A stretch of 64,000 nucleotides of DNA from Acorus gramineus (taxonomy: Eukaryota; Streptophyta; Magnoliopsida; Acorales; Acoraceae), in the NCBI GenBank assembly GCA_030737835.1, contig CM060850.1, forward strand, positions 3,850,015 through 3,914,014, given 5' to 3'. The position numbers were made by a program, and so were the translations under genes. The notes beneath the pieces are model-generated. The model did not search any database. It was not told where the DNA came from and saw only the letters and a program-made list of their open reading frames with translations. Positions 5,357 through 44,639 of the stretch are shown here, piece by piece. Position 1 is the stretch's first letter; every line of letters starts with the position of its first letter.

Positions 5357-5401
<45 letters not shown>

Positions 5402-6416
5402 CAATTAGAAATTTTATATGAATCAGATAAACATTAATCAATTCCATGGAGAAATAAAATGTCAAAAATTCAATTTAAGATACAGTACTGTATCTTAAAA
5501 ACAAACAAAAACCATGTGGATTTTGAATTACCAAACATGTTAATTAGCAGTACATATACTTAAAAAAAAGTCCTTCAAGCCTTCATATACTGGAATATAT
5601 ATATATGACAATTAGCAATTAAATATGAATCACATAAACATTAATCAATTCCATGGAGAAATAAAATGTCAAACTTCAAATCGTGCTTGAAAAATAAAAT
5701 CAAGATACACGTGTATCTGGAATTTATTTTGATAGAGAAATTAAAACAAACAAAAAAGGTATGTGATGAATCGAATGAGTAATAAAAAAATCAGATCGAA
5801 GATGAATTGTTCAGATTGAAATAAATCTAACCTGATTGGATCGCCATTGTCTCACCACAATCGATCGCGAACAAAAAAATATATGAACCGCGAAATTCTA
5901 ATAACCTCCACAGATTCAACTGAAAAAAAAAAATGATTTCGATGCTTGTTTTCACTTCCACCATTGAATCTAGATATAAAATAAATGTAAATCGTGATAT
6001 TTTTTTAGGGTACGAAATACCTAACCTGTATATTTGCACCACCATTAAAATCGCACGAAAAAAAAAAGAAAAATGATGAAATCCTCTCCTTCAACGTTGA
6101 AAGTCTGAACGAAAAATGTAAATTGATGTTTGTTTTCTTTGCAGCATATCAATCTTTATAAAACTCTGTGATTTTTTTTTTTTTTATCGTGCAAATGAAG
6201 TATCTTCATACACCGAAAAAAAATTGAACGGTTGAGATGCTAGGCATTAATTTTTTTTTATCGTGCGTATCAAATCGTAACTAACTCGGCATTAATTGAA
6301 CGGTTATTGAAAAAAACGGGGAGATTAATTAGGAGGGCTAATATAGGTATTTCAAGATTGCCACCTCATGGGGCTTGGGTTGGGGTCTATTAGTTGGGGC
6401 CCAAAAATCATTATTG
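2936..6416. mobile_element. 3.5-kb TIR DNA transposon, non-autonomous
   Basis: Imperfect terminal inverted repeats built of GGCCCC blocks lie at 2936-2995 and about 6350-6416. Both contain GGCCCCAA, a second CCCC block and GAGGTGGCA/TAGGTGGCA-like words in matching order. The element is flanked by TAATAATAT at 2927-2935 and again at 6417-6425, a possible 9-bp target-site duplication. Nine base pairs would suit a Mutator-like element, but the AT-rich word could recur by chance. No transposase reading frame is visible; the interior is mostly satellite. Confidence 0.65.
3790..5720 (+). repeat. ~200-bp satellite array inside the TIR element
   Basis: Tandem units share the near-palindrome AAGATACAGTGCTGTATCTT, the phrase ccatgtggattttgaatta, a TA-rich stretch, and ccatggagaaataaaatgtc. 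The word tgtatct recurs at 3801, 4451, 4650, 4860, 5059, 5262, 5489 and 5712, so spacing is about 199-227 bp after the first, larger gap. A variable (TA)n tract in each unit (longest about 5360-5399) accounts for part of the length variation. Confidence 0.9.
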
Positions 6417-21527: not shown

Positions 21528-21781
21528 CTTAGGTCGCGTGTTCTTATAGGCAAAGACTTGATATGCACATTGCTGAGACAAATTTTGACATAATTTGATC
21601 AAGTTCTAATTAGAAAAGAATTCATATGTGATGCTTTGAATTTATCATTTGATTATGTTACTAAATCTGGATGTAATAACATAATATGTTTCAAATATTT
21701 AAAAAAATCAAGGATATGCATGTATTGATGAAGTTGACATATATTGACATCGAATTACTTTGTATAACATTCCCTGAGAGG
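21528..21781 (+). repeat. Duplicated locus block, copy i (left part)
   Basis: Words such as ttataggcaaagacttga, gcacattgctga, ctaattagaaaagaattc, atatgtgat, tgtaataac and aacattccctgagagg recur in the same order at 23763-24010 and 25625-25870. It is interrupted by the LINE at 21782 and resumes at 22458 (ttctcaaatttcaaccat). Confidence 0.75.
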
Positions 21782-22457
21782 TTCGAACCCACTGACTGCG
21801 CGCTGTGCAACGCCGACCCCGAGACAGTCGAGCACCTCCTTCTCAGGTGTCCTTTGGGTAGCAGACTTTGGTGCGAGCTTAGCAGGGCGACCGGCATGCG
21901 GCTTCAGTTCCAGAAGCTGTCCAAGCTTCGGGATGCGTTACAAACCCCCGCAACGTTGTCCCACCACCTGCCTGCTCAGTTCACCAGGCTCCTACTTCCC
22001 ACGGGCCTTTGGGCATTATGGCGTACTCGCAACGGAGTCCTATTCGGAGGTCAACGTCTTTATTTCAAAAATCTTTGGGACACGGCCTTGCAACTCCTAA
22101 AGGACAGGGGGAAACACTTGGTAGGGCTTAGCGGAGTGTACCATTTGGGGGGTGTGATAGGGTGCGAGGTGTAAGATGTTGTAAGATGTTCCGGTCACCA
22201 CGAGAGGGGGCCCGGTCTTGGACATAGCTTCTACCTGCGGTTTTTCTGGCTCCCACCCGGGGGGAACACTTCTTGTGCACCCGCGGCGCACGGAGCGAAT
22301 TTCCACGGTGCGAGCTTTCCAATTTTGGGTCCTTGGCCGCAGTATATACTCTTTTTTTTATTAACGTCATCTTGTCGCCACCTCCGCATTCGGATCAATT
22401 TGTAACACTCTTCTTTGTTATAAAAATGGCATAACCTTTTTCAAAAAAAAAAAAAAA
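21782..22457 (+). pseudogene. 5'-truncated LINE with zinc-binding RT C-terminus
   Basis: The open frame reads CALCNADPETVEHLLLRC, a zf-RVT motif (C-x2-C-x8-H-x4-C), then GLWALWRTRNGVLFGG and a stop at about 22172. This is the C-terminal end of plant LINE ORF2. A 3' UTR and a poly-A tract at 22443-22459 follow. The insertion is bounded by a 16-bp direct repeat (AACATTCCCTGAGAGG at 21766-21781, one mismatch at 22458-22473), so it is a complete truncated retroposition. The upstream Met of the open frame lies in host DNA and is not a real start. Confidence 0.9.
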
Positions 22458-22473
22458 AACATTCCTTGAGAGG

Positions 22474-23296
22474 GAATTTACTTAGCTACCATTGTCTCAA
22501 ATTTCAACCATAGTCGAAAAAGTATTTTCATGCACAACTTATATCATAGTTAACAAAACAATAAAAATTTCATTATTTCATTGCTCAGTATGAGTAACTA
22601 AACTACAATCAAATAAAAAATTGCTCATTCAAGTGCTTTATATCCATATTAAAATAGTTATCTATCTTGAAATAGTTTATGTCTTTACTTAAATTGAACA
22701 AAAATATATCACCTTCCCCTCTTCTCTGCTGTCCAACACATTCTCCACAAACAAGACCTTTTCGACTCCTGTGTCCTCTATCATCTCCTTCCTTTTGGCT
22801 ACTTCATTTCTATGGTAGCAAATCCCCAAGCCGCTTGGATTTGGAGGTAAACGGCGGAGGAGCGGGAGACAACTCTGGCGGTTGTTTTTTTTTTTCATCA
22901 AAAAACAATCGTCAAAGTTGTCTCCCCCTCCGCCGTTGAATCAGCTCACTAAGTTTTGGTGGAGAATGAGAGATGCAAAGGACAATAATTCACCATTGAA
23001 TCAGCTCCCAATTGATCAACAACCGAAACCCTAGAACCCACGATGATGGAGGCAAGAGGCACTCTAGGGTTTTAAGGTGAGAAGGTTGGGTAGGGTTGGA
23101 TTTATTTTGGATTGGGTTTATTATGTGCACATAATTGGGGATTGTATAAATGATTTATATTCACGCCTTAACAACATAACCGTCGCAACAAATGTGTTAT
23201 TTGGGACGAAAAATATTGTAAATAAAAGATTTATTATTTATGAGACAACAACGCCGTCATAAAAAATTATTTAAATTATATTCACTTAGAGTACAT
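22474..23296. other. Mosaic repeat region with strong hairpin
   Basis: Remains of the duplicated locus block come first (to about 22570). A more GC-rich patch at 22700-23100 contains the inverted repeat listed separately and a second small one (aaaccctag at 23025 with ctagggttt at 23064). Small open frames cross the hairpin and have no support as genes. Confidence 0.5.
22850..22937. repeat. 88-nt hairpin with ~40-bp arms
   Basis: The left arm aacggcggagg...gggagacaact...ttgtttttt pairs with the right arm aaaaaacaa...agttgtctccc...cctccgccgtt. The pairing has a 3-nt bulge and about three mismatches. The loop is a T-rich stretch plus catc. The arms are too similar for an old repeat. It could be a foldback transposon end or a small-RNA precursor. 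Confidence 0.7.
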
Positions 23297-23762
23297 ATTA
23301 AAGTACATTTTGAGGTAGCTTGTTAAAAGAGTGTTTTTTTAGGCGTTCTCAATTCGATGTACCTTTTTAAATAGCTTCTTATAGGTCCCTTTTTTTAGAC
23401 ATCCTCGCATCAAAGTACCTGTTTGGTACCTTCATGTAGGGGTGCCTTTTTAGGCATACTCGTATCGAAGTTCCTTTTTAGGTAGTTTCTAAAAAGAGTT
23501 CCTTTTCTGATATCTTTATATTGAAATACATTTTTAAGTAAGTATTTGCAGATATGATTTTTAGGCATCCTTTTATTTTAAAATGTGTTTAGATAGCTCC
23601 TTGTAGGAGTTAGGAGTTCATATTCTAGCCATCTCATATTAAAGTATATTTTAAAATAGCTTATTAAAATAACGTTTTTTTAGACGTCCTCCGTTCGAGA
23701 CACCTTTTTAAATAGCTTCTTGTATGTGCGTTTGTTGAAACATCCTCGTATCGAAGTATCGG
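23297..23762 (+). repeat. 55-bp minisatellite, about 8 diverged units
   Basis: The unit is approximately tatcgaagtacctttttagg, then tagcttcttgtaggg, then a T-rich stretch, then aggcatcctcg. Units begin near 23297, 23352, 23408, 23463, 23519, 23575, 23637 and 23693, with a partial one at 23749. The units are strongly diverged, so the array is old. It abuts a copy of the duplicated locus block at 23763. Confidence 0.75.
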
Positions 23763-24345
23763 CAAAGATTTGATCTGCACATTGCTGATGAGACAAAATT
23801 TTGACAAAATTTGATCAAGAACTAATTAGAAAAGAATTCATATGTGATACTTTGAATTTATCATTTGATTCTGTTACTGAATCTGAATGTAATAACATAT
23901 TATTTTTATTATATAACAATTTCAAGGATTATTTTTCTTCCTAATATGATATACATTGACATTGATTTACTTCTTATAACATTCCCTGGGAGGGAAATTA
24001 GCGACTGTTGTTTCAAATTCCAACCATTGTCGAAAAGTATTTTAATTTTTCTAAATATTCAGTTAAAAATTAACAATTGGATACCTCTCTTACCTTATCT
24101 ATAACCATAATAAACTTCTATTCATCCAACTATACATTTAGCATTTTTAGGATCTGAGTATTTATTTAGTTTAGATGCTATAAAAATACCATCACCATGG
24201 CCTCCTGCTGCATTGGCACACGACATAGAAAGATTAATTTTGTGTATTATGAAACAAATGATCAAAATACATGTAAAAAATAATTTAATTATTTTTATAT
24301 TCTCACTATTCTTATCCCACAAGATCTACAAATGTATAAACAGGC
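23763..24345 (+). repeat. Duplicated locus block, copy ii
   Basis: This is the most complete uninterrupted version. It runs ggcaaagatttgat, aacattccctgggaggg, tcaaattccaaccattgtcg, actatacatttagcatttttagg, catcaccatggcctcctg, gacatagaaag, tattcttatcccac. The later copies at 28866, 32580 and 39840 carry insertions that this one lacks, so it serves as an empty-site reference. Confidence 0.75.
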
Positions 24346-24821
24346 CCCCACCCAAAGAGGGCCCCACTAACCGCATAATCGGTTAAATAAAATAAAAGAA
24401 AAGTGAAATGTACCACTTTTTCTCATGTATTAGTTTCTCTCAACACACATTATTTATCAAAATCAAACTTTAAATTTCTCCCCTCATCGAATCTCTCCAA
24501 CAATAATGACAATATCTCTCTCTATACCCCTCTCTCCCTAGTCCCTTGATTGTGTAAAATAAATAGTACTTAAACCCTTTTAGGTTTTTTTATAATTTTA
24601 TAACTTTTTCATTTCAATAAATTTAATTTTGTTTTTGCTTTTAGACTTTTAAATTATTATAAAATCTTATGTATCTATTTTGTAATATTATTATAGCTTA
24701 AAATAAAATAATATATAGATTTTTTTTTAATGTGCATGGAGCTCCACTTTAAAAATTCACCTTGGCCCCAATTAATAAAACTAATTCTCAAGACCAGTCA
24801 TGTGTACAAATCATACCGATT
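24346..24821. other. AT-rich spacer, no gene recognised
   Basis: A short GC-richer start (aggcccccacccaaagagggcccc), then AT-rich DNA. No coding signal. Confidence 0.5.
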
Positions 24822-24990
24822 AAAAAAACACTGCTGAATATTTATCGAATTCCAAGCCTATAGCCTCCGAGAAGCTAAGCAAAACATTAAATGATGTGCC
24901 AATCAAGGTATACATATACTTTGATTTTGAATCCATAAAATTTCTCTAAGGTAGCATTTAGGAACATGAGTTGATTCTCATCTATCATTC
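24822..24990 (+). repeat. Peptide-gene flank without the gene (decayed copy)
   Basis: The words ctgctgaatatttatcgaattc, aagcctatagcc and aatcaaggtatacatatact match 29872-29960, directly left of the first cysteine-rich peptide gene. Next comes ttaggaacatgagttgattc, which matches 35645-35664 in the intron of the second gene. The exon 2 region that should lie between them is missing. I infer a deleted gene copy. Confidence 0.5.
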
Positions 24991-25335
24991 ATTTATTTTT
25001 ATTTTTATTTTCTTTTAAAAATTGATTCACAGGATGCATATTTTATATGTTTTTTTAAAAAAAACAATGTTGAAATGACATTTATATATATAATTGAAAA
25101 TTCTGACCTGATTTTTCAATTATTCATGTGCTTTTGGAAACACGTTGGAGGATTTTTTTATTAATGCAAAAGCAAAATCACTCAAAAATTTATTTCTAAA
25201 TGCCCCCATGTTTTCATCGCAATTTTGAATTTTGAACTTCAAGCGTAGTGAATTAGTTCAACAACGAAGTGGTGTAAGGAAAATGCAATGTGAAATTTTT
25301 TTTTTTTTTTATCGGACATTACTTGTTATTTACTA

Positions 25336-25574
25336 GGGCCCGTTTGAAAGCACATTTGAAAAATAAGATTTTGAATAAATTAACTTAAATAGATTTTGAT
25401 TCTTAAAAAATGCATTTTTTGCGCTTTTTAAAAAACAACATTTTTGTACTAAAAGTTATACATAATTTTTTAATTAAGTTGACTTTCACTCGTTTGATAA
25501 CATGTTTGAATTTTTTACTTAATTAAAAGAATAATCAACCCCCCTCCCCCCGAATCATGTTACTAAATGGGCCT
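25336..25574. mobile_element. Small Tourist-like MITE
   Basis: The ends GGGCCCGTTTG and its near-complement AAATGGGCCT are inverted and about 240 bp apart, with AT-rich, non-coding DNA between them. This fits the PIF/Harbinger-Tourist pattern. The 3-bp target duplication is not clear. Confidence 0.45.
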
Positions 25575-25607
25575 TAAAAAAATGGTTACACGTGCACAAG
25601 TTAGAAA

Positions 25608-25870
25608 AATTACACCAATAACTAGGCGCATGTTCTTATAGGCAAAGACTTGAGATGCACATTGCTGATGAGATAAAATTTGGTCAAGAACTAATTAGAA
25701 AAGAATTCATATATGATACTTTGAATGTATCATTTGATTCTGTTACTAAATCTGAATGTAATAACATAGTATTTTTATTATTTAAAACAATTTCAAGGAT
25801 TATTTTTCTTTCTATTATGATATACTAAAGAAGTTGATATATATTGATATTGATTTAACTTTCAATAATG
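25608..25870 (+). repeat. Duplicated locus block, copy iii (partial)
   Basis: Repeats the ttcttataggcaaagacttgag, gcacattgctgatgaga, ctaattagaaaagaattcat and tgtaataacatagta order of copies i and ii, then diverges after 25870. Confidence 0.7.
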
Positions 25871-30056: not shown

Positions 30057-30471
30057 CTACCTGCAGAATTCCAAGCATATATCTTGACTATCATAGCAAT
30101 GGCCATTCTTTGACCTATCCACTGTGTTCATGCAGCAGTAACATCCCTGTCCAATGCTAAAATCCTCACAGAACCTCCATGGACAACCAATAAGAACAAT
30201 GTTTGGCTCTGCAGATTTACCAACCATGATGTCTCGGCCTTCAAAATAACATCCATAAAAGAATGATCAATGGAATTGCATTCTCAATTCATAATCACAT
30301 TTGAATACTTCTCGAAGGTAGCAAACAGACTCTAAAATTAGGGCCAAACACAAGTCCACGAAAATGAAAAAGAGCAATGCAAGTTCAGATTCACTTACAT
30401 TCGTTTGTTGCAAAGAGACCTGAAAGGACAAACACCATAAGAAACACACGGATGAAGATCTTTCTCTCCAT
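30057..30471 (-). CDS. Secreted cysteine-rich peptide, copy 1 (MEG1/ESF1-like)
   Basis: Two exons, 30399-30471 and 30057-30238, with GT-AG borders and a 160-bp intron, give 84 residues. Exon 1 encodes a signal peptide: MERK, then a hydrophobic core to LFA, then TNE. The intron splits the first Cys codon. The mature part has nine cysteines: Cys25, 43, 48, 57, 59, 60, 72, 79 and 83, in the framework C-x17-C-x4-C-x8-CYCC-x11-CY-x5-C-x3-C. The CYCC...C...C arrangement resembles maize MEG1 and Arabidopsis ESF1 peptides, which are secreted at the seed maternal-filial interface; family placement is by eye. It ends CLEFCR. A TATA box lies at 30514-30522. Defensin-like or another cysteine-rich class remains possible. 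Confidence 0.8.
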
Positions 30472-30513
30472 TGTTGTTCAATAGAATTGCTAGAAAATGA
30501 TGTAAGTGGGTCA

Positions 30514-30522
30514 TTATATATA
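30514..30522 (-). promoter_or_regulatory. TATA box of peptide gene copy 1
   Basis: The minus strand reads tatatataatg about 45 bp upstream of the ATG. The same block occurs in copy 2 (about 37439-37447) and, slightly shorter, in copy 3 (about 44296-44301). Confidence 0.5.
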
Positions 30523-30555
30523 CACACTAAAAAGATGTCTGGCCATTTATTATTG

Positions 30556-32296
30556 GGGAAAATGACCAAATAAACTCTTAGGCCTAATTTGGTAAAGACA
30601 TAAATTTTTAGGATAAGTTAGTCAGGATAAAAATTCACTATTTTTATCCAGATTTGCATTTGTTAATGTTTTTTATTATCCTCATTTTTTGTGTTCTTAT
30701 CTTTAATCTTGCATTTGGATCAAACATGGGATAACTTCAATTTTTTTAAAAAAATATCAAATCTATCTTTTCTATTAATAGGGGTATTAATGTTGTTTAG
30801 TGGAACATATTCTTTTATTTTATTTTTATTTTTTTTATTTTTTTTTGGGAAAAGTAGTCATCAATGTTATCTCAATTTTACAAAATATAGATAAAAGATT
30901 GGGACAAAGTCTGTTCTACCTTTTACCTAGAAAAAACTATCCCCATTTTTTATCTAAAAATGTGGGCAATTGTCTATGCTTTATCCCGTTTTTTTTTTAT
31001 GCCATATGGGATAATAAGTGATTTAACCCAATTTTTTCCTTATCCCAACCCCTTATCTCCATGTCAAACTAGGCCTTAAAAGTTAAAAATACTCAAATCA
31101 GCTACTTTTTAAAATTATATATAAAAAAGACTCATTTTACAATTTTTGAAACACAAAAAACTAGCATACCCTTATGTAATATGATACTTAATATCCCTCT
31201 AACCCTTATTAGGTTATTCCATACCAAAAATCTATTTTTCCTAAAAAACAACAATCTTTCTCCATATGATCCAAATCAATACCCTTAGATGTTTTGTTAT
31301 TATATATTATATTGTGTGTTTCTTATATATACCTTACATTTTTTTATGGGAATGATAATATATATATATATATATATCTTACATAATGTTGTTTATCATT
31401 TTTCATTGTTTATAATAATAATATGTAATTTAAATTTGTGTTGTGTCTCAGTGTAGTAGATGATATTTTAGTATTCTAAATCTTTATTTATTTTTTTTTT
31501 TGCTTGGCTATTCACATATTTTTATGACGTCATTAGTACATATTCATTTTTAAAAAAAAACATCTAACATTTAATGGAGTTTATTATAAAAAATTCAAAC
31601 TATATTAGCACATATCTCATAAAATCCACTTAATCACAAGTTATTCTATGGTTTATACCTATTCTATGAATTTTTGACTTTATCAATGGAATAAGTGATT
31701 TTATGTTTGGTTATGTTTTCGGTTATTCTCATTGGGAAACACAATATTAAAGGTTGAAGTGTTTGATTGATAAAGAATAAAATGCGAAGAATGTATAAAA
31801 AGTTGATTTGACATGTAGGTCTCATCGATATATAAGAGATGATGACAAGTGATTTGATGTGATGATATGTGATTTAATAGGTGGATTCTCTTATAACAGT
31901 GGAGGTATAATACAATTCCATGGGAGGATTTGGAATACAAATACCAGTTTATTCTCCTCTAATTTTGCATAGCTATACCCATTTATTCTCTCTACCCAAA
32001 GACCTTTTTTTGTTATTCTCATCTATTATCACATATTCCTCCCCTATTCCACTACCCAAACGCCTAGAGTAAAAAAAGTTCTTCATAAAAATGTGTGAAA
32101 TACATAACAAAATTAAGAGGGTGAAATATTTTTAAAAAGTTATGAGGTATAGAATATGTTAAGGATCTAATTATATAAGGGTGGATTAGTCTTTTGTGTT
32201 TCTAAAACTGTGAAATGACATTTTTTTGGTATAATTTTAAAAAGTGACTGATTTGGATATTTTTAACTTTTAAAAGATTTTTTTTACCGTTTTTCC
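30556..32296. mobile_element. Foldback MITE upstream of peptide gene copy 1
   Basis: The left end ggggaaaatgacc and inner aaagttaaaaatactcaaat pair with the right end atatttttaacttttaaaag...gtttttcc. Another element (30581-31075) is nested in the left arm. It starts only about 85 bp upstream of the ATG. The corresponding place in copy 3 (44325-44345) runs directly into ttgttatttaat, the sequence that follows this element here, so copy 3 is an empty site. Confidence 0.65.
30581..31075. mobile_element. Tourist-like MITE nested in the foldback element
   Basis: The ends GGCCTAATTTGG and CAAACTAGGCC are inverted repeats. They are flanked by TTA at 30578-30580 and 31076-31078, the 3-bp duplication of PIF/Harbinger elements. 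No coding capacity. The same insertion is at 37506-38002 in unit 2, so it predates the duplication. Confidence 0.8.
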
Positions 32297-32299
32297 TTA

Positions 32300-32990
32300 T
32301 TGTTATTTAATTTACATTCTAGGATATGAGTTTTTATGTTTTTACCAATATTTTGGTCAACAATCCATTTTTATGAATATCTTATATGCAGAGATTTTGA
32401 GACAATTAAAGCAATATTATTATGAGAAGATAGGACGCTAAAATTCTAAATTTAATACTTACCAAAACAAAAAATTCAAAACTTATTAGTCATAGATATG
32501 ACTGTCTCTAGACAAATGTAAAGCCAAACGCAACCTTATGCCTGTTAAATTCGTAACCTATTTGGATAGTGACATAAATATTTTTTATAACATTCTCTTA
32601 GAAGAAATTGAATTAGGGAACGTCTCTAATTTCAATCACAAGTATCATTTGAATCTGGTTTGAAATGGATTTTAGGGTGAAAACGGAAAACGCGACTTTA
32701 AATGATTTCTGACAAATGCAATATTTTTCGTGTTTCCTGCATTTTATTCATTAAACTTTTAGCGTTTTAAAATTTTTCAAAACAATGCTTTTTAAAACGG
32801 AGTAGATTATAAATAAATAAATAAACCGTGTTTGGAACTCATTTTCAAGCAAGGCCACAATCAGTAAATTATTTTTTTTTCGAATGTTCATAAAAAATTA
32901 ACACCCCTTAGCTATTAAGGGAGTAAAAGCCTACTTGTCAAAATTTAACATTTTCAGGTTTGAATATCTATTCGTTTATATGGTTTTTAA
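32300..32990. repeat. Peptide-gene distal upstream block and locus block, unit 1
   Basis: ttctaggatatga, accaatattttggtcaacaa and gagattttgagacaatta recur at 39591-39690 and, in more diverged form, at 44346-44430 directly upstream of copy 3. This suggests a conserved promoter-distal segment. From 32580 (taacattctcttagaa) it joins the duplicated locus block. Confidence 0.6.
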
Positions 32991-32993
32991 AAA

Positions 32994-33878
32994 GGATTAA
33001 TTGTTCAGATACCTCTGTAGCCAACCTCTCATTATTCCTGTGTCCACACCTATTCAAAAAAAAATTCTATACTCCTGTAGCAAACACCTAATTTTTTTTA
33101 CCCTCCCCTCTCTAATTCCCTCAGCCCCATAAAATTGTAGCTTTTCCTCTGTAAGTTCATATATGTTTTATGTAACTTACAGAACACAACATGTAATTTA
33201 TATAAATATTATCTATAAGTACATTATTATGCATTTTATGTAAAAATGATAACTTTCAAAACACTAGAGAAACATATGTTAATGCATAACACCTGAAAAT
33301 ATTTTATCATAATAAATACATCAAAGCGCTTCAATTCATTGAATGTTTGCATTCCGATGTTGTTTTCCTACTCTAATGAACTAAGTTGTTGTCTTCCCCC
33401 GAATGTTTTTCATATCAGTTTGACTGAAATCGAATCTAATGTTACATCTTTCAGTCAGCAAGCGTACATCATTAGGAAGAAAGCACAGTCTAAACTATAT
33501 TAGAAATGCAATAATCAGTCAAACATCCAAATAAATCAAACACCAACAAGTGTGTACTTCATGATATTATAAGAACCACACATGTATTAATGTTATGCAT
33601 TAATGTATGTTTCTCTAGTGTTTTGTAAATTACCATTTTTACATGACATAATAATGCACTTACAGATAATGTTTACAGAAATTACATTTCGTGTTCTATA
33701 AGTTACAGAAAACATATGTACACTTAGAGGGGGAAATTGCGATTTAGAGGGGGCATTAAAGGGAGGAGGGTAAAAAATAATTGAGTGTTTGTTGCAGGGG
33801 TACAGAAATTTTTTTTGAAAATGTGAGGGCACAAGAATAATAGAGGGTTGGCTGCAGGGGTATTTGAACAATTCACCC
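32994..33878. mobile_element. Foldback MITE with ~290-bp arms
   Basis: The left arm (attgttcagatacctctgta, ccaacctctcattattcc, atgtaacttacagaacac) pairs with the right arm (gtgttctataagttacag, gaataatagagggttggc, gcaggggtatttgaacaat). TTAAAAA flanks both sides. The locus block copies at 24170 and 29380 lack it. It is also present at 40265-41071 in unit 2, where an internal deletion has removed about 75 bp of the right arm. Confidence 0.75.
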
Positions 33879-35366
33879 TTAAAAACCATCAACATGGCCT
33901 TCTGTTATATTATATTGCCTTCGCGACATAGAATTTAATTTTGTGTATTTGTAAAACCCATAATCAACATAGAATTTAATTTTGTGTATTTTTAAAACCC
34001 ATAATCAATATACACAAAAAATAATATAATTATTTTTATATCCTCAATATTCTTATCCTATACAATCTACAAATGTACTATTATCATTTCGAACAAAATT
34101 CTGCTTGGCATGACAATCACTCATGTGCAAAATCAATGTATATACTAGAACACAAATAGATGAATATATAAATTCATCCAATAATTTAAAAACAATAATG
34201 TTTTAGAGCCTTATCTTTTAGGCCCCATGACAAGCCCAGAAGTCCCATGAGATTGCAAAGAGACAAAACATATTATACTCTTTTTGCTTTAATAGGTAAC
34301 CACTCCCCAAAACGTAGTGAAAATTACGATTTCTCATCTACAACTGTGTGTCGCGGATGAGTATTAAATGTCTTTTTTCTTTTTTTGAAATGTTCAATTA
34401 AATTCTTATTCATCATAATTAATCGATCTTTTTTTTTTCCGAACTCAATTTTTGTATGAAGAACATCTAATGGCAGATATGAATTTCTACTTCGGAGGAT
34501 TTGATTTTCACTGATTCATTTTTTATCGATTTGGATTTCGTTTCAATGTCTATTGGATCAGGTTTAACATTTGGTGTTTGGCTTTGAATATAATGTTTTC
34601 TATTTTTTGTATAACCTAGATTGAAGAATGTAACAGAATTTATTTTTTCATGAACTAGATGTAGCATTTGTTAAATGTAACACACAACAAAAAAGGTCTT
34701 TGACATTTTTTTATAAAATGTAACTGACTATTGAAGAATTGATCTATTTTTAAATTGTTTAAATATTGAATGGAATGTAAAACATTTAGGTAAATGTAAG
34801 TGTTATGATACATTAATGTAAGGGTAACAATGTTTATGTAATTATAACAAATAGTTGTGAGAGATGTAAACATTTAAGAAATATATTTGCATTGTGTGAG
34901 ATGTATCTCATATATGTAAATTGAAAAGATGTTTGTCAAATGCTAGAAGGTAACAGATATGTAAGACGTTTTTAAAGAATGAATCTATTTTTCATGAAAT
35001 AATCTGTTTTCATTGTTGTACGTGTGCGTGCTATGATAAATCTGGAATTAATACTAATTATTAATTATAATTCAATTACAATTTAGGTAAAGATTTTGAA
35101 ATTCAAATTTTGAAATAGGTAAATTTTGTGTAAGATTCACGTGGAAGAGTAATAACCGAATCGAGAAAAAAAAAGGGATTAGAACAGACTTTAATGAAGG
35201 ACCGATCCTATTTAGATTTCTTACCATTTTTTTAAAGTCAACAAACCATCCAATAAGATAATACACCTGCTTATGAGTGGAGCCTATAAAAGCCTTAGTA
35301 TATCTCTCATTTAAAAATTATTATTTTATTATTCAATCATTATTTATCACAAGGTAAATTGTTTGT
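33879..35366. other. AT-rich spacer of the duplicated unit 1
   Basis: End of the locus block (catcaacatggcc to about 34085), then AT-rich DNA. It matches about 41072-42533. Open frames around 34467-34873 are conserved in the duplicate only because the duplication is recent. No domain is seen. Confidence 0.5.
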
Positions 35367-37396
35367 TCAACTGCCACCTCTGCAGAATTCCAAGCATACA
35401 TCTTCAGTGTCATAGCAATGGCCATCCCTTGACTTGTCCTCTGTATTAATGCAGCAATAACATCCCTGTCCAATGCTAAAATCCTCACAGAACCTCCATG
35501 GGCAACCAATAAGAACAATGTTTGGCTCTGCGGATTTACCAACCATCATGTCTCGGCCTTCAAAAAAACATTATTAAAAGAATGATTAATGAAATTGCAT
35601 TGTCAGTTGATAACCACATTTGAAGACTGGAACTTTTTTAAGTTTAGGAACATGGATTGATTCTCATATAAAAAAATTTGGTCCTCAAAGTTTGATTCTC
35701 ATATAAAAACCATATTTGAAGTGATATTTATAACTCAAAACTGGGTCTGGTTTACAAACTTTAGAAGATTTGTTTTAAATATTAATATATTTTTTGAATA
35801 TTTGAACGTTCCATGATATATAAGAATTTTTTTTTATAATTTTAGTTGACAAATTTTTAAATATATCTTCTACAATTAAGAATACCCAATTTTTTGTCTA
35901 AAATTTAGTAATATTAAGTTTTACCAAAGTTTACTACTCATTCTTAATAAGATATTCAAAAATACAAAAAAAAAAAAAGTAAACATTTTTTCAAGTAAAA
36001 AACTATTTTTTTGTGTTTTATAAAATTTATCAATTAATTAACTATGAAATAGTTTAAGTAGGGGTTAATGATTCAATTAGAAAAGGGTAATTCAGTCAAT
36101 TAGGGTAACAAAATTATCAAGGAAGATTTTTTTAGTATATATTTTTTAAAAGTGGTTGATTTGGGTATTAATAAACTTTAGGAATTATCCCTTTAGTTTA
36201 TACCATTAAAATATTGTTAAAATTTTCATATTTACCGCTCTAGTTAAATTTTCTCATTTTTTTAAATAGAAAAAATCGATATAACTCCCTGAAAAAATCA
36301 CTAAATCGGTTTAATTCCTTGTAAAATTGAAAAATAGTCACAAGTCCCTATGTAATTAGAAAAATATAGTTGCAGTCCCTACCATCACCCCAACTAATCA
36401 AGCACATGCTTAATCATAATTACACATTAAAAATTACCAAAATGGCATCACCCCATATTTTCGCAAAATTGAAATAACTCTCTCTAAATTTATGAAATCA
36501 AAAAAGGTCCCTATAAAATTAGTAAATCCCCTCAGGTACCTATGTTATTAGACAATATTATTTTAGTCTCCACCCTAACAGAAACTAACTAGATCTGTGA
36601 TTATTCGATTTAGTGAACTTTCCGGGGAGTTGTATCGATTTTTATCTTTCCAAATATATTCGGTAACACTATTAAATCATGCATTTAATAAATACACACA
36701 AAATTATTAGAGATCCCTCTTTGGGAGGGGATCTAAGCAGCTGTCAAACATGCTTAAGGATGTTTTGATGTGAGACGAAAAGTGTGAGATTGAAACTCTC
36801 ATATTCCTAAAATCTTATGTTTCAAACTCAACTTTTAAAAAGCTATGTTTTATTAGATTTTCAACAGCAGGATTTTTTTTGCTTAAAAATGAATATTGTG
36901 ATTTAAAAAGTTAAAAGCTAAAAATATGTTTCGATCTGAGTTTTAAAATCTTTAATTTTTCAAACTCAGAATCTGCCTAAACTCATATCCAAACGGATCC
37001 TAAAAAACAAAGATTCACTTTCAATATCAATAAAGATTCACTTAACGCTGCATTTCAATATCAACTGTGGACTATTGACAAACTCAATCTTCATATATAG
37101 TTCTTCAAATTTTGTTTATTCACACACAAAGAACTGAATTTGATTTTCCAAAAAAACCGACATGACTGTTTGGATCTACATTTGACTGCTTTGAGATCTA
37201 AGATATAAAATCAACCCAAATGCAGATCCAAATAGACCTTTAAAGTGGGGCCAAACTTATTAAATCCACAAAGAAGAAGGGTGAGAAAATGAAAAAGAGC
37301 AATGCAAGTTCAGATTCACTTACATTCGTTTGTTGCAAAGAGACCTGAAAGGACAAACACCATAAGAAACACACGGATGAAGATCTTTCTCTCCAT
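35367..37396 (-). CDS. Secreted cysteine-rich peptide, copy 2 (MEG1/ESF1-like)
   Basis: Exons 37324-37396 and 35367-35557 encode 87 residues. Exon 1 and the signal peptide match copy 1 exactly (MERKIFIRVFLMVFVLSG...TNE). Exon 2 gives GCPWRFCEDFSIGQGCYCC, then INTEDKSRDGHCYDTEDVC and LEFCRGGS. The nine cysteines of copy 1 are all kept; a three-residue extension GGS follows the last Cys-Arg because of a changed stop. The intron is 1766 bp against 160 bp in copy 1. The added length is repetitive AT-rich DNA including a worn Tourist-like MITE at about 36759-36991. As the duplication border falls in this intron, exon 1 and exon 2 of this copy came from different ancestral genes. Splicing across the long intron is inferred, not seen. 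Confidence 0.75.
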
Positions 37397-37480
37397 TGTT
37401 GTTCAATAGAATTGCTAGAAAATGATGTAAGTGGGTCATTATATATACACACTAAAAAGATGTCTGGCCATTTATTATTG

Positions 37481-39226
37481 GGGAAAATGACCAAATAAAC
37501 TCTTAGGCCTAATTTGGTAAAGACATAAATTTTTAGGATAAGTTAGTCAGGATAAAAATTCACTATTTTTATCCAGATTTGCATTTGTTAATGTTTTTTA
37601 TTATCCTCATTTTTTGTGTTCTTATCTTTAATCTTGCATTTGGATCAAACATGGGATAACTTCAATTTTTTTAAAAAAATATCAAATCTATCTTTTCTAT
37701 TAATAGGGGTATTAATGTTGTTTAGTGGAACATATTCTTTTCTCTTTTTTTTGGTTTTTTTTTTTTTTTTTTTGGGAAAAGTAGTCATCAATGTTATCTC
37801 AATTTTACAAAATATAGATAAAAGATTGGGACAAAGTCTGTTCTACCTTTTACCTAGAAAAAACTATCCCCATTTTTTATCTAAAAATGTGGGCAATTGT
37901 CTATGCTTTATCCCGTTTTTTTTTTATGCCATATGGGATAATAAGTGATTTAACCCAATTTTTTCCTTATCCCAACCCCTTATCTCCATGTCAAACTAGG
38001 CCTTAAAAGTTAAAAATACTCAAATCAGCTACTTTTTAAAATTATATATAAAAAAGACTCATTTTACAATTTTTGAAACACAAAAAACTAGCATACCCTT
38101 ATGTAATATGATACTTAATATCCCTCTAACCCTTATTAGGTTATTCCATACCAAAAATCTATTTTTCCTAAAAAACAACAATCTTTCTCCATGTGATCCA
38201 AATCAATACCCTTAGATGTTTTGTTATTATATATTATATTGTGTGTTTCTTATATATACCTTACATTTTTTTATGGGAATGATAATATATATATATATAT
38301 CTTACATGATGTTGTTTATCATTTTTTATTTTGTATAATCATAATATGTAATTTAAATTTGTGTTGTGTCTCAGTGTAGTAGATGATATTTTAGTATTCT
38401 AAATCTTTATTTACATTTTTTTTTTTTTTGCTTGGCTATTCACATATTGTTTTGGTGTCATTAGTACGTATTCATTTTTTTAAAAAAAAACATCTAACAT
38501 TTAATGGAGTTTATTATAAAAAATTCAAACTATATTAGCACATATCTCATAAAATCCACTTAATCACAAGTTATTCTATGGTTTATACCTATTCTATGAA
38601 TTTTTGACTTTATCAATGGAATAAGTGATTTTATGTTTGGTTATGTTTTCGGTTATTCTCATTGGGAAACACAATATTAAAGGTTGAAGTGTTTGATTGA
38701 TAAAGAATAAAATGCGAAGAATGTATAAAAAGTTGATTTGACATGTAGGTCTCATCGATATATAAGAGATGATGACAAGTGATTTGATGTGATGATATGT
38801 GATTTAATAGGTGGATTCTCTTATAACAGTGGAGGTATAATACAATTCCATGGGAGGATTTGGAATACAAATACCAGTTTATTCTCCTCTAATTTTGCAT
38901 AGCTATACCCATTTATTCTCTCTACCCAAAGACCTTTTTTTGTTATTCTCATCTATTATCACATATTCCTCCCCTATTCCACTACCCAAACGCCTAGAGT
39001 AAAAAAAGTTCTTCATAAAAATGTGTGAAATACATAACAAAATTAAGAGGGTGAAATATTTTTAAAAAGTTATGAGGTATAGAATATGTTAAGGATCTAA
39101 TTATATAAGGGTGGATTAGTCTTTTGTGTTTCTAAAATTATGAAATAACATTTTTTTGGTATAATTTTAAAAAGTGACTGATTTGGATATTTTTAACTTT
39201 TAAAAGATTTTTTTTACCGTTTTTCC
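37481..39226. mobile_element. Foldback MITE upstream of peptide gene copy 2
   Basis: Duplicate of the element at 30556-32296, in the same position about 85 bp upstream of the copy 2 ATG. It includes the nested Tourist-like MITE at 37506-38002 with TTA on both sides. The open frame 37616-37948 within it is part of this non-coding element. Confidence 0.65.
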
Positions 39227-39256
39227 TTATTGTTATTTAATTTACATTCTAGGATA

Positions 39257-39589
39257 TGTTGTAAACTAAATAGAATATGATATATAAGAGTATATAAACA
39301 AAGCACACAAGCATATAGAAGAGAAGTAGAGAGAGATTCTTATTCACTATTTGTTGGTTAGTTGAATACAAGAGAAACCCCTCTATTTATAGGGTGCATA
39401 GAGGAATCCCAAAGATGAGGAGTTACAAGTCTATAGAGGTGAGGGGGAGATAGTGGGGCAACAATGAGAGTGTTATGAAATAAAAGAGTGAGAGAGGTTA
39501 TGGAATTGAATGAGGGGGTTATGGAGTTGAAGAGTGGGGGAGGTTATGGGTTAGAAAAGTGGTGGTTATCCACCACCATATTCACAACT
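39257..39589 (-). mobile_element. Solo LTR (Copia-like, 333 bp)
   Basis: The insertion begins TGTTGTAAAC and ends TTCACAACT, flanked by GGATA at 39252-39256 and 39590-39594. Unit 1 has the exact empty site with a single GGATA (attctaggatatgagt, about 32320-32335). On the minus strand a CTATAAATAGAGG TATA box lies at about 39380-39392 and the 3' end is TTTACAACA, so the LTR is in minus orientation with its first base changed (AG for TG). No internal retrotransposon sequence remains, as expected after LTR-LTR recombination. Confidence 0.9.
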
Positions 39590-40264
39590 GGATATGAGTT
39601 TTTATGTTTTTACCAATATTTTGGTCAACAATCCATTTTTATGAATATCTTATATGCAGAGATTTTGAGACAATTAAAGCAATATTATTATGAGACGATA
39701 GGACGCTAAAATTCTAAATTTAATACTTACCAAAAACAAAAAATTTAAAACTTATTAGTCATAGATATGACTGTCTCTTGACAAATGTAAAGCCAAACGC
39801 AACCTTGGGCCTGTTAAATTCGTAACCTGTTTGGATAGTGACATAAATGTTTTTTATAACATTCTCTTAGAAGAAATTGAATTAGGGAACGTCTCTAATT
39901 TCAATCACAAGTATCATTTGAATCCGGTTTGGAATGGATTCTCGGGTGAAAACGGAAACCGCGACTTTAAATGATTTCTGACAAATGCGATATTTTTCGT
40001 GTTTTCTGCATTTTATTCATTAAACTTTTCATGTTTCAAAATTTTTCAAAACAATGCTTTTTAAAATGGAGTAGATTATAAATAAATAAATAAACCGTGT
40101 TTGAAACTCATTTTCAAGCAAGGCCACAATCAGCAAATTAATTTTTTTTTCGAATGTTCATAAAAAATTAACACCCCTTGACTATTAAGGGAGCAAACGC
40201 CTACTTGTCAAAATTTAATATTTTCAGGTTTGAATATCCATTCGTTTTTATGGTTTTTAAAAAA

Positions 40265-41071
40265 GATTAATTGTCCAAATACCTCTGCAACCAATCTCTC
40301 ATTATTCCTGTGTTCCCACCTTTTCAAAAAAAATTTCTATACCCCTGTAGCAAACACCTAATTTTTTTACCCTCCCCTCTTTAATTCCCTCAGCCTCATA
40401 AAATCATAGTTTTTGCTTTGTAAGTTCATATATGTTCTATGTAACTTACAGAACACAAAATATAATTTCTATAAATATTATCTATAAGTGCATTATTATG
40501 CATGTCATGTAAAAATGATAACTTTCAAAACACTAGAGAAACATATGTTTAATGCATAACACCTGAAAATATTTTATCACAATAAATACATCAAAGCGCT
40601 TCAATTCATCGAATGTTTGCATTCCGATGTTCTTTTCCTACTCTAATGAACTAAGTTGTTGTCTTCCCCCGAATCCTTTTCATATCAGTTTGACTGAAAT
40701 CGAATCTAATGTTACATCTTTCAGTCAGCAAGCGTACATCATTAGGAAGAAAGCACAGTCTAAACTATATTAGAAATGCAATAATCAGTCAAACATCCAA
40801 ATAAATCAAACACCAACAAGTGTGTACTTCATGATATTATAAGAACCACACATGTATTAATGTTATGCATTAATGTATGTTTCTCTAGTGTTTTGTAAAT
40901 TACCATTTTTACATGACATAATAATGCACTTACAGATAATGTTTACAGAAATTACATTTCGTGTTCTATAAGTTACAGAAAACATATGTACACTTAGAGG
41001 GGGAAATTGCGATTTTGTGGGGCTGGGGGAATGAAAGGGAGGAGGGTAAAAAATAATTGAACAATTCACCC
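40265..41071. mobile_element. Foldback MITE, unit 2 copy
   Basis: Duplicate of the element at 32994-33878. Part of the right arm is missing: after gtaaaaaataattga the sequence jumps directly to acaattcaccc. The arms are therefore unequal in length. Confidence 0.7.
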
Positions 41072-42533
41072 TTAAAAACCATCAACATGGCCTTCTGTTA
41101 TATTATATTGCCTTCGCGACATAGAATTTAATTTTGTGTATTTTTAAAACCCATAATCAATATACACAAAAAATAATATAATTATTTTTATATCCTCAAT
41201 ATTCTTATCCTATACAATCTACAAATGTACTATTATCATTTCGAACAAAATCCCGCTGTATGTCCCAGAGGCTTGGCACGACAATCATTCATGTGTAAAA
41301 TCAATGTATATACTAGAACACAAATACATGAATATATAAATTCATCCAATAATTTAAAAACAATAATGTTTTTAGAGCTCCATCTTTTAGGCCCATGACA
41401 AGCCCAGAAGTCCCATGAGATTGCAAAGAGACAAAACATATTATACTCTTTTTGCTTTAATAGGTAACCACTCCCCAAAACGTAGTGAAAATTACGATTT
41501 CTCATCTACAACTGTGTGTCGCGGATGAGTATTAAATGTCTTTTTTCTTTTTTTGAAATGTTCAATTAAATTCTTATTCATCATAATTAATCGATCTTTT
41601 TTTTTTCCGAACTCAATTTTTGTATGAAGAACATCTAATGGCAGATATGAATTTCTACTTCGGAGGATTTGATTTTCACTGATTCATTTTTTATCGATTT
41701 GGATTTCGTTTCAATGTCTATTGGATCAGGTTTAACATTTGGTGTTTGGCTTTGAATATAATGTTTTCTATTTTTTGTATAACCTAGATTGAAGAATGTA
41801 ACAGAATTTATTTTTTCATGAACTAGATGTAGCATTTGTTAAATGTAACACACAACAAAAAAGGTCTTTGACATTTTTTATAAAATGTAACTGACTATTG
41901 AAGAAATGATCTGTTTTTAAATTGTTTAAATATTGAATGGAATGTAAAACATTTAGGTAAATGTAAGTGTTATGATACATTAATGTAAGGGTAACAATGT
42001 TTATGTAATTATAACAAATAGTTGTGAGAGATGTAAACATTTAAGAAATGTATTTGCATTGTGTGAGATGTATCTCATATATGTAAATTGAAAGATGTTT
42101 GTCAAATGCTAGAAGGTAACAAATATGTAAGACGTTTTTAAAGAATGAATCTATTTTTCATGAAATAATCTGTTTTCATTGTTGTATGTGTGTGTGTCAT
42201 GATGAATCTGAAATCAATAATTAATTGTTAATTATAATTCAATTACAATTTAGGTAAAGATTTTGAAATTCAAATTTTGAAATAGGTAAATTTTGTGTAA
42301 GATTCACGTGGAAGAGTAATAACCGAATCAAGAAAAAAAAAGGGATTAGAACAGACTTTAATGAAGGACCGATCCTATTTAGATTTCTTACCATTTTTTT
42401 AAAGTCAACAAACCATCCAATAAGATAATACACCTGCTTATGAGTGGAGCTTATAAAAGCCTTAGTATATCTCTCATTTAAAAATTATTATTTTATTATT
42501 CAATCATTATTTATCACAAGGTAAATTGTTTGT

Positions 42534-44253
42534 TCAACTGCCACCTCTGCAGAATTCCAAGCATACATCTTCAGTGTCATAGCAATGGCCATCCCTTGAC
42601 TTGTCCTCTGTATTAATGCAGCAATAACATTGCACTCCAATTCCAAAAGCCTCGCAAAACCTCCCTGGGCAACCAATAAGAACAATGTTTGGCTCTGCGG
42701 ATTTACCAACCATCATGTCTCGGCCTTCAAAAAAACATTATTAAAAGAATGATTAATGAAATTGCATTGTCAGTTGATAACCACATTTGAAGACTGGAAC
42801 TTTTTTAAGTTTAGGAACATGGATTTTTTTCAAGTAAAAAACTATTTTTTTGTGTTTTATAAAATTTATCAATTAATTAACTATGAAATAGTTTAAGTAG
42901 GGGTTAATGATTCAATTAGAAAAGGGTAATTCAGTCAATTAGGGTAACAAAATTATCAAGGAAGATTTTTTTAGTATATATTTTTTAAAAGTGGTTGATT
43001 TGGGTATTAATAAACTTTAGGAATTATCCCTTTAGTTTATACTATTAAAATATTGTTAAAATTTTCATATTTACCGCTCTAGTTAAATTTTCTCATTTTT
43101 CTAAATGAAAAAATCGATATAACTCCCTGAAAAATTCACTAAATCGGTTTAATTCCTTGTAAAATTGAAAAATAGTCACAGGTTCCTATGTAATTAGAAA
43201 AATATAGTTGCAGTCCCTACCATCACCCCAACTAACCAAGTACATGATTAATCATAATTACACATTAAAAATTACCAAAATGGCATCACCCCGTATTTTC
43301 GCAAAATTGAAATAGCTCTCTAGAAATTTATGAAATAAAAAAAGATCCCTATAAAATTAGTAAATCCCCTCATGTACCTATGTTATTAGACAATATTATT
43401 TTAGTCTCCACCCTAACAGAAACTAACTAGATCTGTGATTATTCGATTTAGTTAACTTTTTGGGGAGTTGTATCGATTTTTATCTTTCCAAATATATTCA
43501 GTAACACTATTAAATCATGCATTTAATAAATACACACAAAATTATTAGAGATCTCTCTTTGGGAGGGGATCTAAGCAGCCGCCAAACATGCTTAAGGATG
43601 TTTTGATGTGAGACTAAGGGTGCGTTTGGGTGTGAGATTGAAACTCTCATATTCCTAAAATCTTATGTTCCAAACTCAGCTTTTAAAAAGCTATGTTTTA
43701 TTAGATTTTCAATCACAATATTTTTTGGCTTAAAAATGAAGATATGGTTTGAAAAACTAAACGCTGAAAATGTATTTGGATTTGAGTTTCAGAATTTTTA
43801 GTTTTTCAAAATCAGAATCTGCCTAAACTAACATCCAAACGGACCCTAAAATACAAAGATTCACTTAAAGTTGTATTTCAATATCAATAAAGATTCACTT
43901 AACGCTGCATTTCAATATCAACTGTGGACTATTGACAAACTCAATCTTCATATATATTTCTTCAAATTTTGTTTATTCACACACAAAGTACTGAATTTGA
44001 TTTTCCAAAAAAAACGACATGACTGTTTGGATCTACATTTGACTGCTTTGAGTTCTAAGATATAAAATCAACCCAAATACAGATCCAAATAGACCTTTAA
44101 AGTAGGGCCAAACTTGTTAAATCCACAAAGAAGAAGGGTGAGAAAATGAAAAAGAGCTAGGGAAGTTCAGATTCACTTACATTCGTTTGTTGCAAAGAGA
44201 TCTGAAAGGATAAACATCAAAAGAACCACACGGATGAAGATCTTTCTCTTCAT
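42534..44253 (-). CDS. Secreted cysteine-rich peptide, copy 3 (MEG1/ESF1-like)
   Basis: Exons 44181-44253 and 42534-42724 (intron 1456 bp) encode 87 residues. The signal peptide is diverged: MKRKIFIRVVLLMFILSD, then LFATNE. Exon 2 matches copy 2 except between the second and fourth mature cysteines, where GCPGRFCEAFGIGVQCYCC replaces GCPWRFCEDFSIGQGCYCC. All nine cysteines and the CRGGS end are kept. The proximal promoter region is the least altered of the three, because no foldback element separates the TATA region from the shared upstream block at 44346-44430. The intron carries a Tourist-like MITE with clean TAA duplications (43618-43846). Confidence 0.77.
43618..43846. mobile_element. Tourist-like MITE in the intron of copy 3
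   Basis: GGGTGCGTTTGGGTGT at the left and ACATCCAAACGGACCC at the right are inverted repeats, flanked by TAA at 43615-43617 and 43847-43849. In copy 2 the corresponding left end (about 36768-36785) has lost the first ~16 bp. No coding capacity. Confidence 0.8.
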
Positions 44254-44639
44254 AGTTGCTCAATAGAATAGCAAGAAAATGATGGAAGAGAGTCATTATA
44301 TACACTAAAAAAGGTCTGTCCATTATAGATTGTTATTTAATATTCTAGGATATGAATGTTTTAAATTTTACCAATATTTTGGGCAACAATCCACTTTTAG
44401 GTATGTCTTTTAAAATGGAGATTTTGAGACAATTAATGCGACATTATTACGAGAAGATAAGACACCAAAATTAAAATTTAACAGTGAAGGTATAACAGTT
44501 GTAACCCTCGTTTGCCTACAACATAGGCTATTTCAGAATAGACAATTATTTTAATATATATAAAAAATATATCATTTTTTGTTAGTTGTATTTTTAATTA
44601 TTTTAGTTGAAAAAACTAATAACAAAATTTTTGTTGTTT

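Follow-up and report, generated by a model that had tools for sequence, protein, structure and literature searches.

A short gene conversion tract is the probable source of an apparent hypervariable loop in a tandem cluster of ESF1/PCP-B-like peptide genes of Acorus gramineus

Why should two tandem gene copies of Acorus gramineus that are otherwise nearly identical around their second exon differ at ten positions within a single stretch of 35 bp? The question is raised by the minus strand of the window, by which we mean the whole stretch of 64,000 nucleotides analysed here (contig CM060850.1, positions 3,850,015 to 3,914,014), where three two-exon genes lie in tandem, all three with intact reading frames. 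The exon and intron limits of the three genes rest on splice sites predicted from the sequence. The predicted exons, the divergent patch and the duplicated block to which the copies belong are as follows, with type A denoting the sequence of copy 1 and type B that of copy 3.

30399..30471, minus strand: copy 1, predicted exon 1, with the start codon and a hydrophobic leader
30057..30238, minus strand: copy 1, predicted exon 2 (type A), coding part including the stop
37324..37396, minus strand: copy 2, predicted exon 1 (type A), identical to copy 1 exon 1
35367..35557, minus strand: copy 2, predicted exon 2 (type B, carrying a patch of type A)
44181..44253, minus strand: copy 3, predicted exon 1 (type B), the leader differing at 6 of 24 residues
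42534..42724, minus strand: copy 3, predicted exon 2 (type B)
35464..35498, minus strand: patch in copy 2, with 10 differences from copy 3 and 0 from copy 1
42631..42665, minus strand: patch in copy 3, putatively the older second-type (B) sequence, with one occurrence in the assembly
30362..37300, no strand assigned: left copy of a tandem block of about 7 kb, the right copy being 37287-44157

The introns, of 160, 1766 and 1456 bp in copies 1, 2 and 3, begin with a GTAAGT donor and end with an AG acceptor. The exon 1 product is a hydrophobic leader, a putative signal peptide as judged by eye, and exon 2 encodes a product with eight cysteines in the arrangement C-x4-C-x8-C-x-CC-x11-C-x6-C-x3-C. 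A ninth cysteine is predicted at the splice junction (30399/30238, 37324/35557 and 44181/42724) and is absent from the PCP-B spacing given in PMC9856046; it was because of this predicted cysteine that the preliminary description placed the patch between cysteines 2, 3 and 4. Elsewhere in the window lie one ROH1-like gene and one PPR gene, an array of diverged and unevenly spaced direct repeats of 115-226 bp (3693-5654), and a 129-nt repeat present three times (21587-25800), the first unit of which overlaps an ORF with a zf-RVT match below the Pfam cut-off.

The best Pfam match of the peptides is ESF1 (EMBRYO SURROUNDING FACTOR 1, PF18209), with E values of 3e-4 to 7e-3. Its gathering score of 24.1 bits is reached neither by exon 2 of copies 1, 2 and 3 (21.4, 19.3 and 18.3 bits) nor by the full proteins (20.0, 18.1 and 17.1 bits), and because the best of these scores, 21.4, falls below 24.1 we use the term ESF1/PCP-B-like for the peptides without counting them as members of the family. 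A PDB search up to E 10 returned a sole match, 2RU1 (E 0.14, or 0.22 with the three-copy profile), which we take to be the NMR structure of ESF1.3. An NMR structure of that peptide is mentioned in PMC5215366, which also names Trp-48 of ESF1.3 and Tyr-45 of AtPCP-Bgamma. Like ESF1/PCP-B, the copies have an aromatic residue after the sixth exon-2 cysteine, a Tyr in all three that aligns with the Trp of 2RU1, and this is presumably the same position as Trp-48 and Tyr-45. The eight-cysteine spacing given for PCP-B of Arabidopsis (CX4CX7-8CXCCX6-8CX6CX3C; PMC9856046) is matched in cysteine order and in every spacing except the CC-to-C loop, which has 11 residues in the three copies against 6-9 in ESF1/PCP-B. 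Comparison of the three copies with the Meg Pfam models gave no significant match (E 0.5 or worse), and no relatives were found in plasmids with the copy 3 protein as query, or in viral and prokaryote contigs with the three-copy alignment. PCP-B peptides are FERONIA ligands whose match with the receptor is species-preferential (PMC9908550); ESF1 peptides have a role in early seed development (PMC5215366, PMC4236715). By analogy, an ESF1/PCP-B-like function may be supposed for the three copies.

The patch itself proved to be as the preliminary description had it. Between 35464-35498 and 42631-42665 there are exactly 10 substitutions in 35 bp, without an indel, and a codon comparison confirmed that eight of them fall in five residue-changing codons (W>G, D>A, S>G, Q>V and G>Q, read on the minus strand from copy 2 to copy 3) and that two are silent (TTC>TTT in a Phe codon and TGT>TGC in a cysteine codon). 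The cysteines are indeed untouched as residues, one of their codons being silently changed, and the claimed near-identity around the patch holds as well: exon 2 contains no other difference between copies 2 and 3, and 557 aligned flanking bases are free of substitutions, the nearest aligned ones lying at 35284 and 36204 with a single 328-bp intron indel between them (35658-35985, present in the copy 2 intron and missing from that of copy 3). When the 6414 aligned positions in the 7-kb block were shuffled 5000 times, no 35-bp window held 10 differences, and the maximum of 9 occurred in two shuffles; the alignment used for this density had costlier gaps, cheaper ones having fallen inside the patch and caused an undercount (6/32). 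Two windows with higher counts were rejected, one of 13/35 at 34205/41373 as a gap-placement artefact of the first block alignment and one of 20/35 at 30330 as the non-homologous end of the block. The differences across the block are clustered even when the patch is left out (100-bp bins, mean 2.5, variance 10.6), and a non-coding window at 36898/43744 is as dense as the patch (10/35), so that a high density by itself does not set the coding loops apart; a second non-coding window, at 35027/42193, has 8/35 differences. The ratio of transitions to transversions is 4:6 in the patch and 112:54 in the rest of the block (P=0.09) and was left out of the argument.

Several other features of the block deserve mention in their own right. 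The non-coding stretch 35021-35060 (about 42187-42226 in the right block), some 400 bp from the patch, has nine substitutions in 40 aligned bp, all of them transitions, perhaps through decay of a methylated stretch. At 36780-37000 and 43618-43846 lies a stretch that by eye resembles a transposon remnant of the MITE kind, with up to 10/35 differences between the block copies, these being in the dense window at 36898 mentioned above; its ends in the right block are GGGTGCGTTTGG and CCAAACGGACCC, and the left block lacks GGGTGCGTTTGG. A 338-bp stretch from 39252 occurs in the right block only.

We then turn to copy 1, which shares about 318 bp around exon 2 with the other two copies, and in this three-copy comparison 42 sites are variable. 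Outside the patch, 32 sites single out copy 1 and 0 single out copy 3, and inside it the counts are 0 and 10; copy 2 is singled out at 0 of the 42. The ten copy-3 sites are consecutive among the variable sites (P 2.2e-8), and throughout this shared stretch copy 2 is identical to copy 3, save for 35-44 bp in which it is identical to copy 1 instead. The earlier remark that copy 1 matches copy 2 at the patch is thereby extended to a 44-bp interval, for which a putative donor can be named.

35458..35501, minus strand: longest interval of identity between copies 1 and 2 at the patch (44 bp), giving the maximum extent of the putative tract, bounded by the copy-1-specific sites 35457 and 35502
30139..30182, minus strand: part of copy 1 that is the putative donor, with the same sequence as copy 2, in the register 35464 = 30145

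The sequence relationship among the copies switches locally and the switch is significantly clustered, and for copy 2 a donor that is identical over the tract, copy 1, is present in the window. A transfer from copy 1 to copy 2 would leave such a switch of site pattern, and the likeliest account of the patch is a conversion of 35-44 bp in that direction, with copy 3 keeping the older B type. If copy 2 were unconverted, the chance of finding no copy-1-odd site in 35 bp would be 0.019 at the rate of the whole homology and 0.033 at that of exon 2. Some figures count against this account: at a uniform rate of A-B differences taken from exon 2 outside the patch (16/155), at least 10 differences in 35 are expected with P=0.002 (Fisher 0.011), and an extra, loop-specific excess must therefore be accepted under the conversion reading; compared with the part of exon 2 that is 3' of the patch alone (13/95), the Fisher test gives P=0.068.

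Where this divergence lies can be seen from the silent and amino-acid sites. Across the 13 loop codons, silent divergence between copies 1 and 3 (2.5/7.8 sites) is comparable to that of copy 1 from copies 2/3 in exon 2 outside the loop codons (7/26 sites), and the patch is therefore ordinary in its A-B silent divergence; between copies 1 and 2 the loop codons have 0/6.7 sites. Amino-acid divergence between the A and B types peaks in the cysteine 2-4 loops, with 7.5/31 sites against 8/70 after the patch (Fisher P 0.08, entered as 8/31) and against 9/112 in all remaining exon 2 (P 0.012). Diversifying selection on a supposedly receptor-facing loop, which the preliminary description had offered as one explanation, was not borne out by the loop dN/dS of 0.29/0.42, or about 0.7, a ratio of little power that is based on 13 codons in three sequences. 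We hold it very improbable that recent point changes in the copy 3 loops, brought about by such selection or by multi-nucleotide mutation, produced the patch. They would agree with the position of 8 of the 10 changes in residue-changing codons with the cysteines spared, and two Brassicaceae PCP-B genes have dN/dS values of 1.06 and 1.36 with many selected sites between cysteines (PMC9856046); however, for ten changes to fall within 35 bp and the 557 flanking bases to be free of them, uniform placement gives P 1e-13, two silent changes lie alongside the others, and the Gly of copy 3 is favoured over Trp in the family profile, so that not all of the changes look derived in copy 3. A template switch as the source of the copy 3 patch was rejected, since no exact match of at least 11 bp exists elsewhere in the window on either strand.

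A conversion from an unsampled paralogue had also been proposed, and of this proposal the short conversion stands as the best explanation, whereas a donor into copy 3 gives way to the transfer from copy 1 to copy 2 that the site pattern fits. A paralogue that was lost, left unassembled or carried by the other haplotype would, as a donor to copy 3, explain the ten differences without a loop-specific rate, and ESF1/PCP-B families may be sizeable: PMC5215366 reports 282 PCP-B-like proteins from 36 species. We searched the species' own assembly (398.6 Mb, 137 contigs), in which all search counts are lower bounds. A DNA search returned three close copies only, all in the window, and the copy 3 patch, with up to 3 mismatches allowed in its 35 bases, turned up at a single place, so neither search found the postulated donor with the copy 3 patch. 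With the copy 3 protein as query, the assembly also yielded a distant pair on contigs C10 and C133 and, weakly, a locus on C6 (E 0.9). The copy 1 protein retrieved that pair besides the three window copies, and the C10 protein retrieved these same five loci together with two insignificant places on C11 (E about 3). A PF18209 profile search of the genome gave 0 matches at E 0.001 and missed the three window copies and the controls too, so that it carries no information on a donor. The distant ESF1-like exon lies at C10:19839464 and C133:112563 in loci that are 98% identical over 3.2 kb and are perhaps two haplotypes, the smaller contig being an unmerged one; handling of haplotypes in the assembly may thus be imperfect, which is a point in favour of an unsampled donor. 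The two distant paralogues vary in their cysteine 2-4 loops, also in length. A donor to copy 3 would further leave copies 1 and 2 to differ in the patch at the usual 10%, and their identity would need chance or constraint (P 0.02-0.03). Conversion of copy 2 by copy 1 is favoured over the unsampled donor to copy 3 by a likelihood ratio that is, roughly and depending on the assumptions, 1.4 to 33, and with a freely chosen donor divergence the unsampled donor is only 1.4-2.6 times less likely; taking all this together, we consider such a donor unlikely. Over the five single exchanges the family profile prefers the copy 3 residue at three and the copy 2 residue at two, and since it is mixed in this way and the cysteine 3-4 loop is shorter in the distant paralogues, the direction cannot be polarised by them. 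Direction, order of events and the mechanism of conversion are what we infer.

The patch is one part of a larger structure, as copy 2 is an A/B/A/B mosaic when the patch is counted. The other change of type lies within intron 1 and makes copy 2 an A/B chimera independently of the patch, which supports the account preferred here.

37285..37300, minus strand: putative unequal-exchange junction in intron 1, 16 bp identical in all copies, copy 2 being type A towards exon 1 and type B towards exon 2

Exon 1 of copy 2 and the adjoining upstream DNA equal those of copy 1, and beyond the junction copy 2 is like copy 3; copy 1 has its upstream DNA, leader and cysteine 2-4 loops in common with copy 2, and copy 3 has a leader of its own. 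Upstream of copy 3, homology to copies 1/2 extends for some 70 bp from the start codon, and the 150 bp beyond that point are 82% like DNA about 1.8 kb upstream of copy 1 exon 1. The segments 30360-30547 and 32299-32455 match 44142-44324 and 44329-44481, the latter two adjoining, and the A and B types therefore differ by an upstream segment of about 1.75 kb (30548-32298; cf. 44325-44481) that is missing from copy 3.

A change from A to B at an intron junction is the expected product of unequal exchange and accounts for the 7-kb tandem block. Our data, which are those of sequence comparison, make the following history probable. Two old tandem genes of the ESF1/PCP-B-like kind, A (copy 1) and B (copy 3), would have undergone an unequal exchange in intron 1 that gave rise to a third gene, copy 2, with the upstream DNA, leader and intron 1 start of A and the intron and exon 2 of B. 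Later, 35-44 bp of copy 1 would have been transferred non-reciprocally into copy 2, replacing the codons for the cysteine 2-4 loops, with copy 3 retaining the B version, and the 'hypervariable patch' would be A-versus-B divergence exposed by this conversion, with its peak in the loops because these are a variable part of the family. The mosaic pattern and the intact frames were observed directly, and the genome searches gave no other close donor. The order might also have been the reverse, with a type A exon 2 in copy 2 whose flanks were converted by copy 3, leaving the patch as an A remnant that was perhaps selected. The 557 substitution-free bases, against a block mean of 2.6%, do look as if recently homogenised (P 4e-7 at a uniform rate, the block rate being uneven), but this order takes more events, and the junction in intron 1 already provides a B exon 2, the intron and downstream spacer of copy 2 being type B; we regard it as distinctly unlikely. 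An artefact of assembly or polishing, to which near-identical tandem copies are prone, is extremely unlikely: the patch preserves frame and cysteines, the searches found no second occurrence of the copy 3 version that could have been the source of a misplacement, and a misplaced copy 1 read should presumably also have brought the copy-1 bases at 35457 and 35502, both of which are absent.

The preferred history, an exchange in intron 1 followed by a short conversion from copy 1 to copy 2, has parallels in other plant genes. The putative tract of 35-44 bp agrees in size with the Arabidopsis non-crossover conversion tracts, estimated at about 25-50 bp (PMC3865688), and tracts exchanged among resistance-gene paralogues are mostly below 100 bp, as mentioned in PMC3749932. 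The same paper describes, for HMA4 of Arabidopsis halleri, a similar network-like relationship among three tandem copies, whereas the present case concerns one short tract in a small peptide gene, deduced from one genome. The Meg genes of maize (PMC4236715) likewise encode locally duplicated cysteine-rich seed peptides; the paper on them reports selection, and the term 'gene conversion' is absent from its main text. Less conversion has been reported for defensin-like genes than for NLR genes (PMC5731061). In the open-licence literature, no paper paired 'gene conversion' with 'embryo surrounding factor', gene conversion together with cysteine-rich peptides and tandem duplication in plants gave only animal work as judged by title and abstract, and none of the matches listed paired 'gene conversion' with 'PCP-B'.

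The case is probably an instance of a known process, an ordinary but instructive gene conversion. Overwriting of one copy by its neighbour can give a loop the look of hypervariability or positive selection, and it is three-copy site patterns, not pairwise density, that separate such overwriting from hypervariability or selection. It is conceivable, although rather doubtful, that exchange among tandem peptide genes amounts to loop shuffling: copy 2 would have moved towards copy 1 twice, once in its upstream DNA and leader and once in its cysteine 2-4 loops, while keeping the later loop of B, and the outcome, kept by selection, would be a third ligand that is expressed like A and presents a hybrid surface for recognition. 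If the copy 2 hybrid is functional, the cluster would offer a small natural test of receptor-preference loops in ESF1/PCP-B-like peptides.
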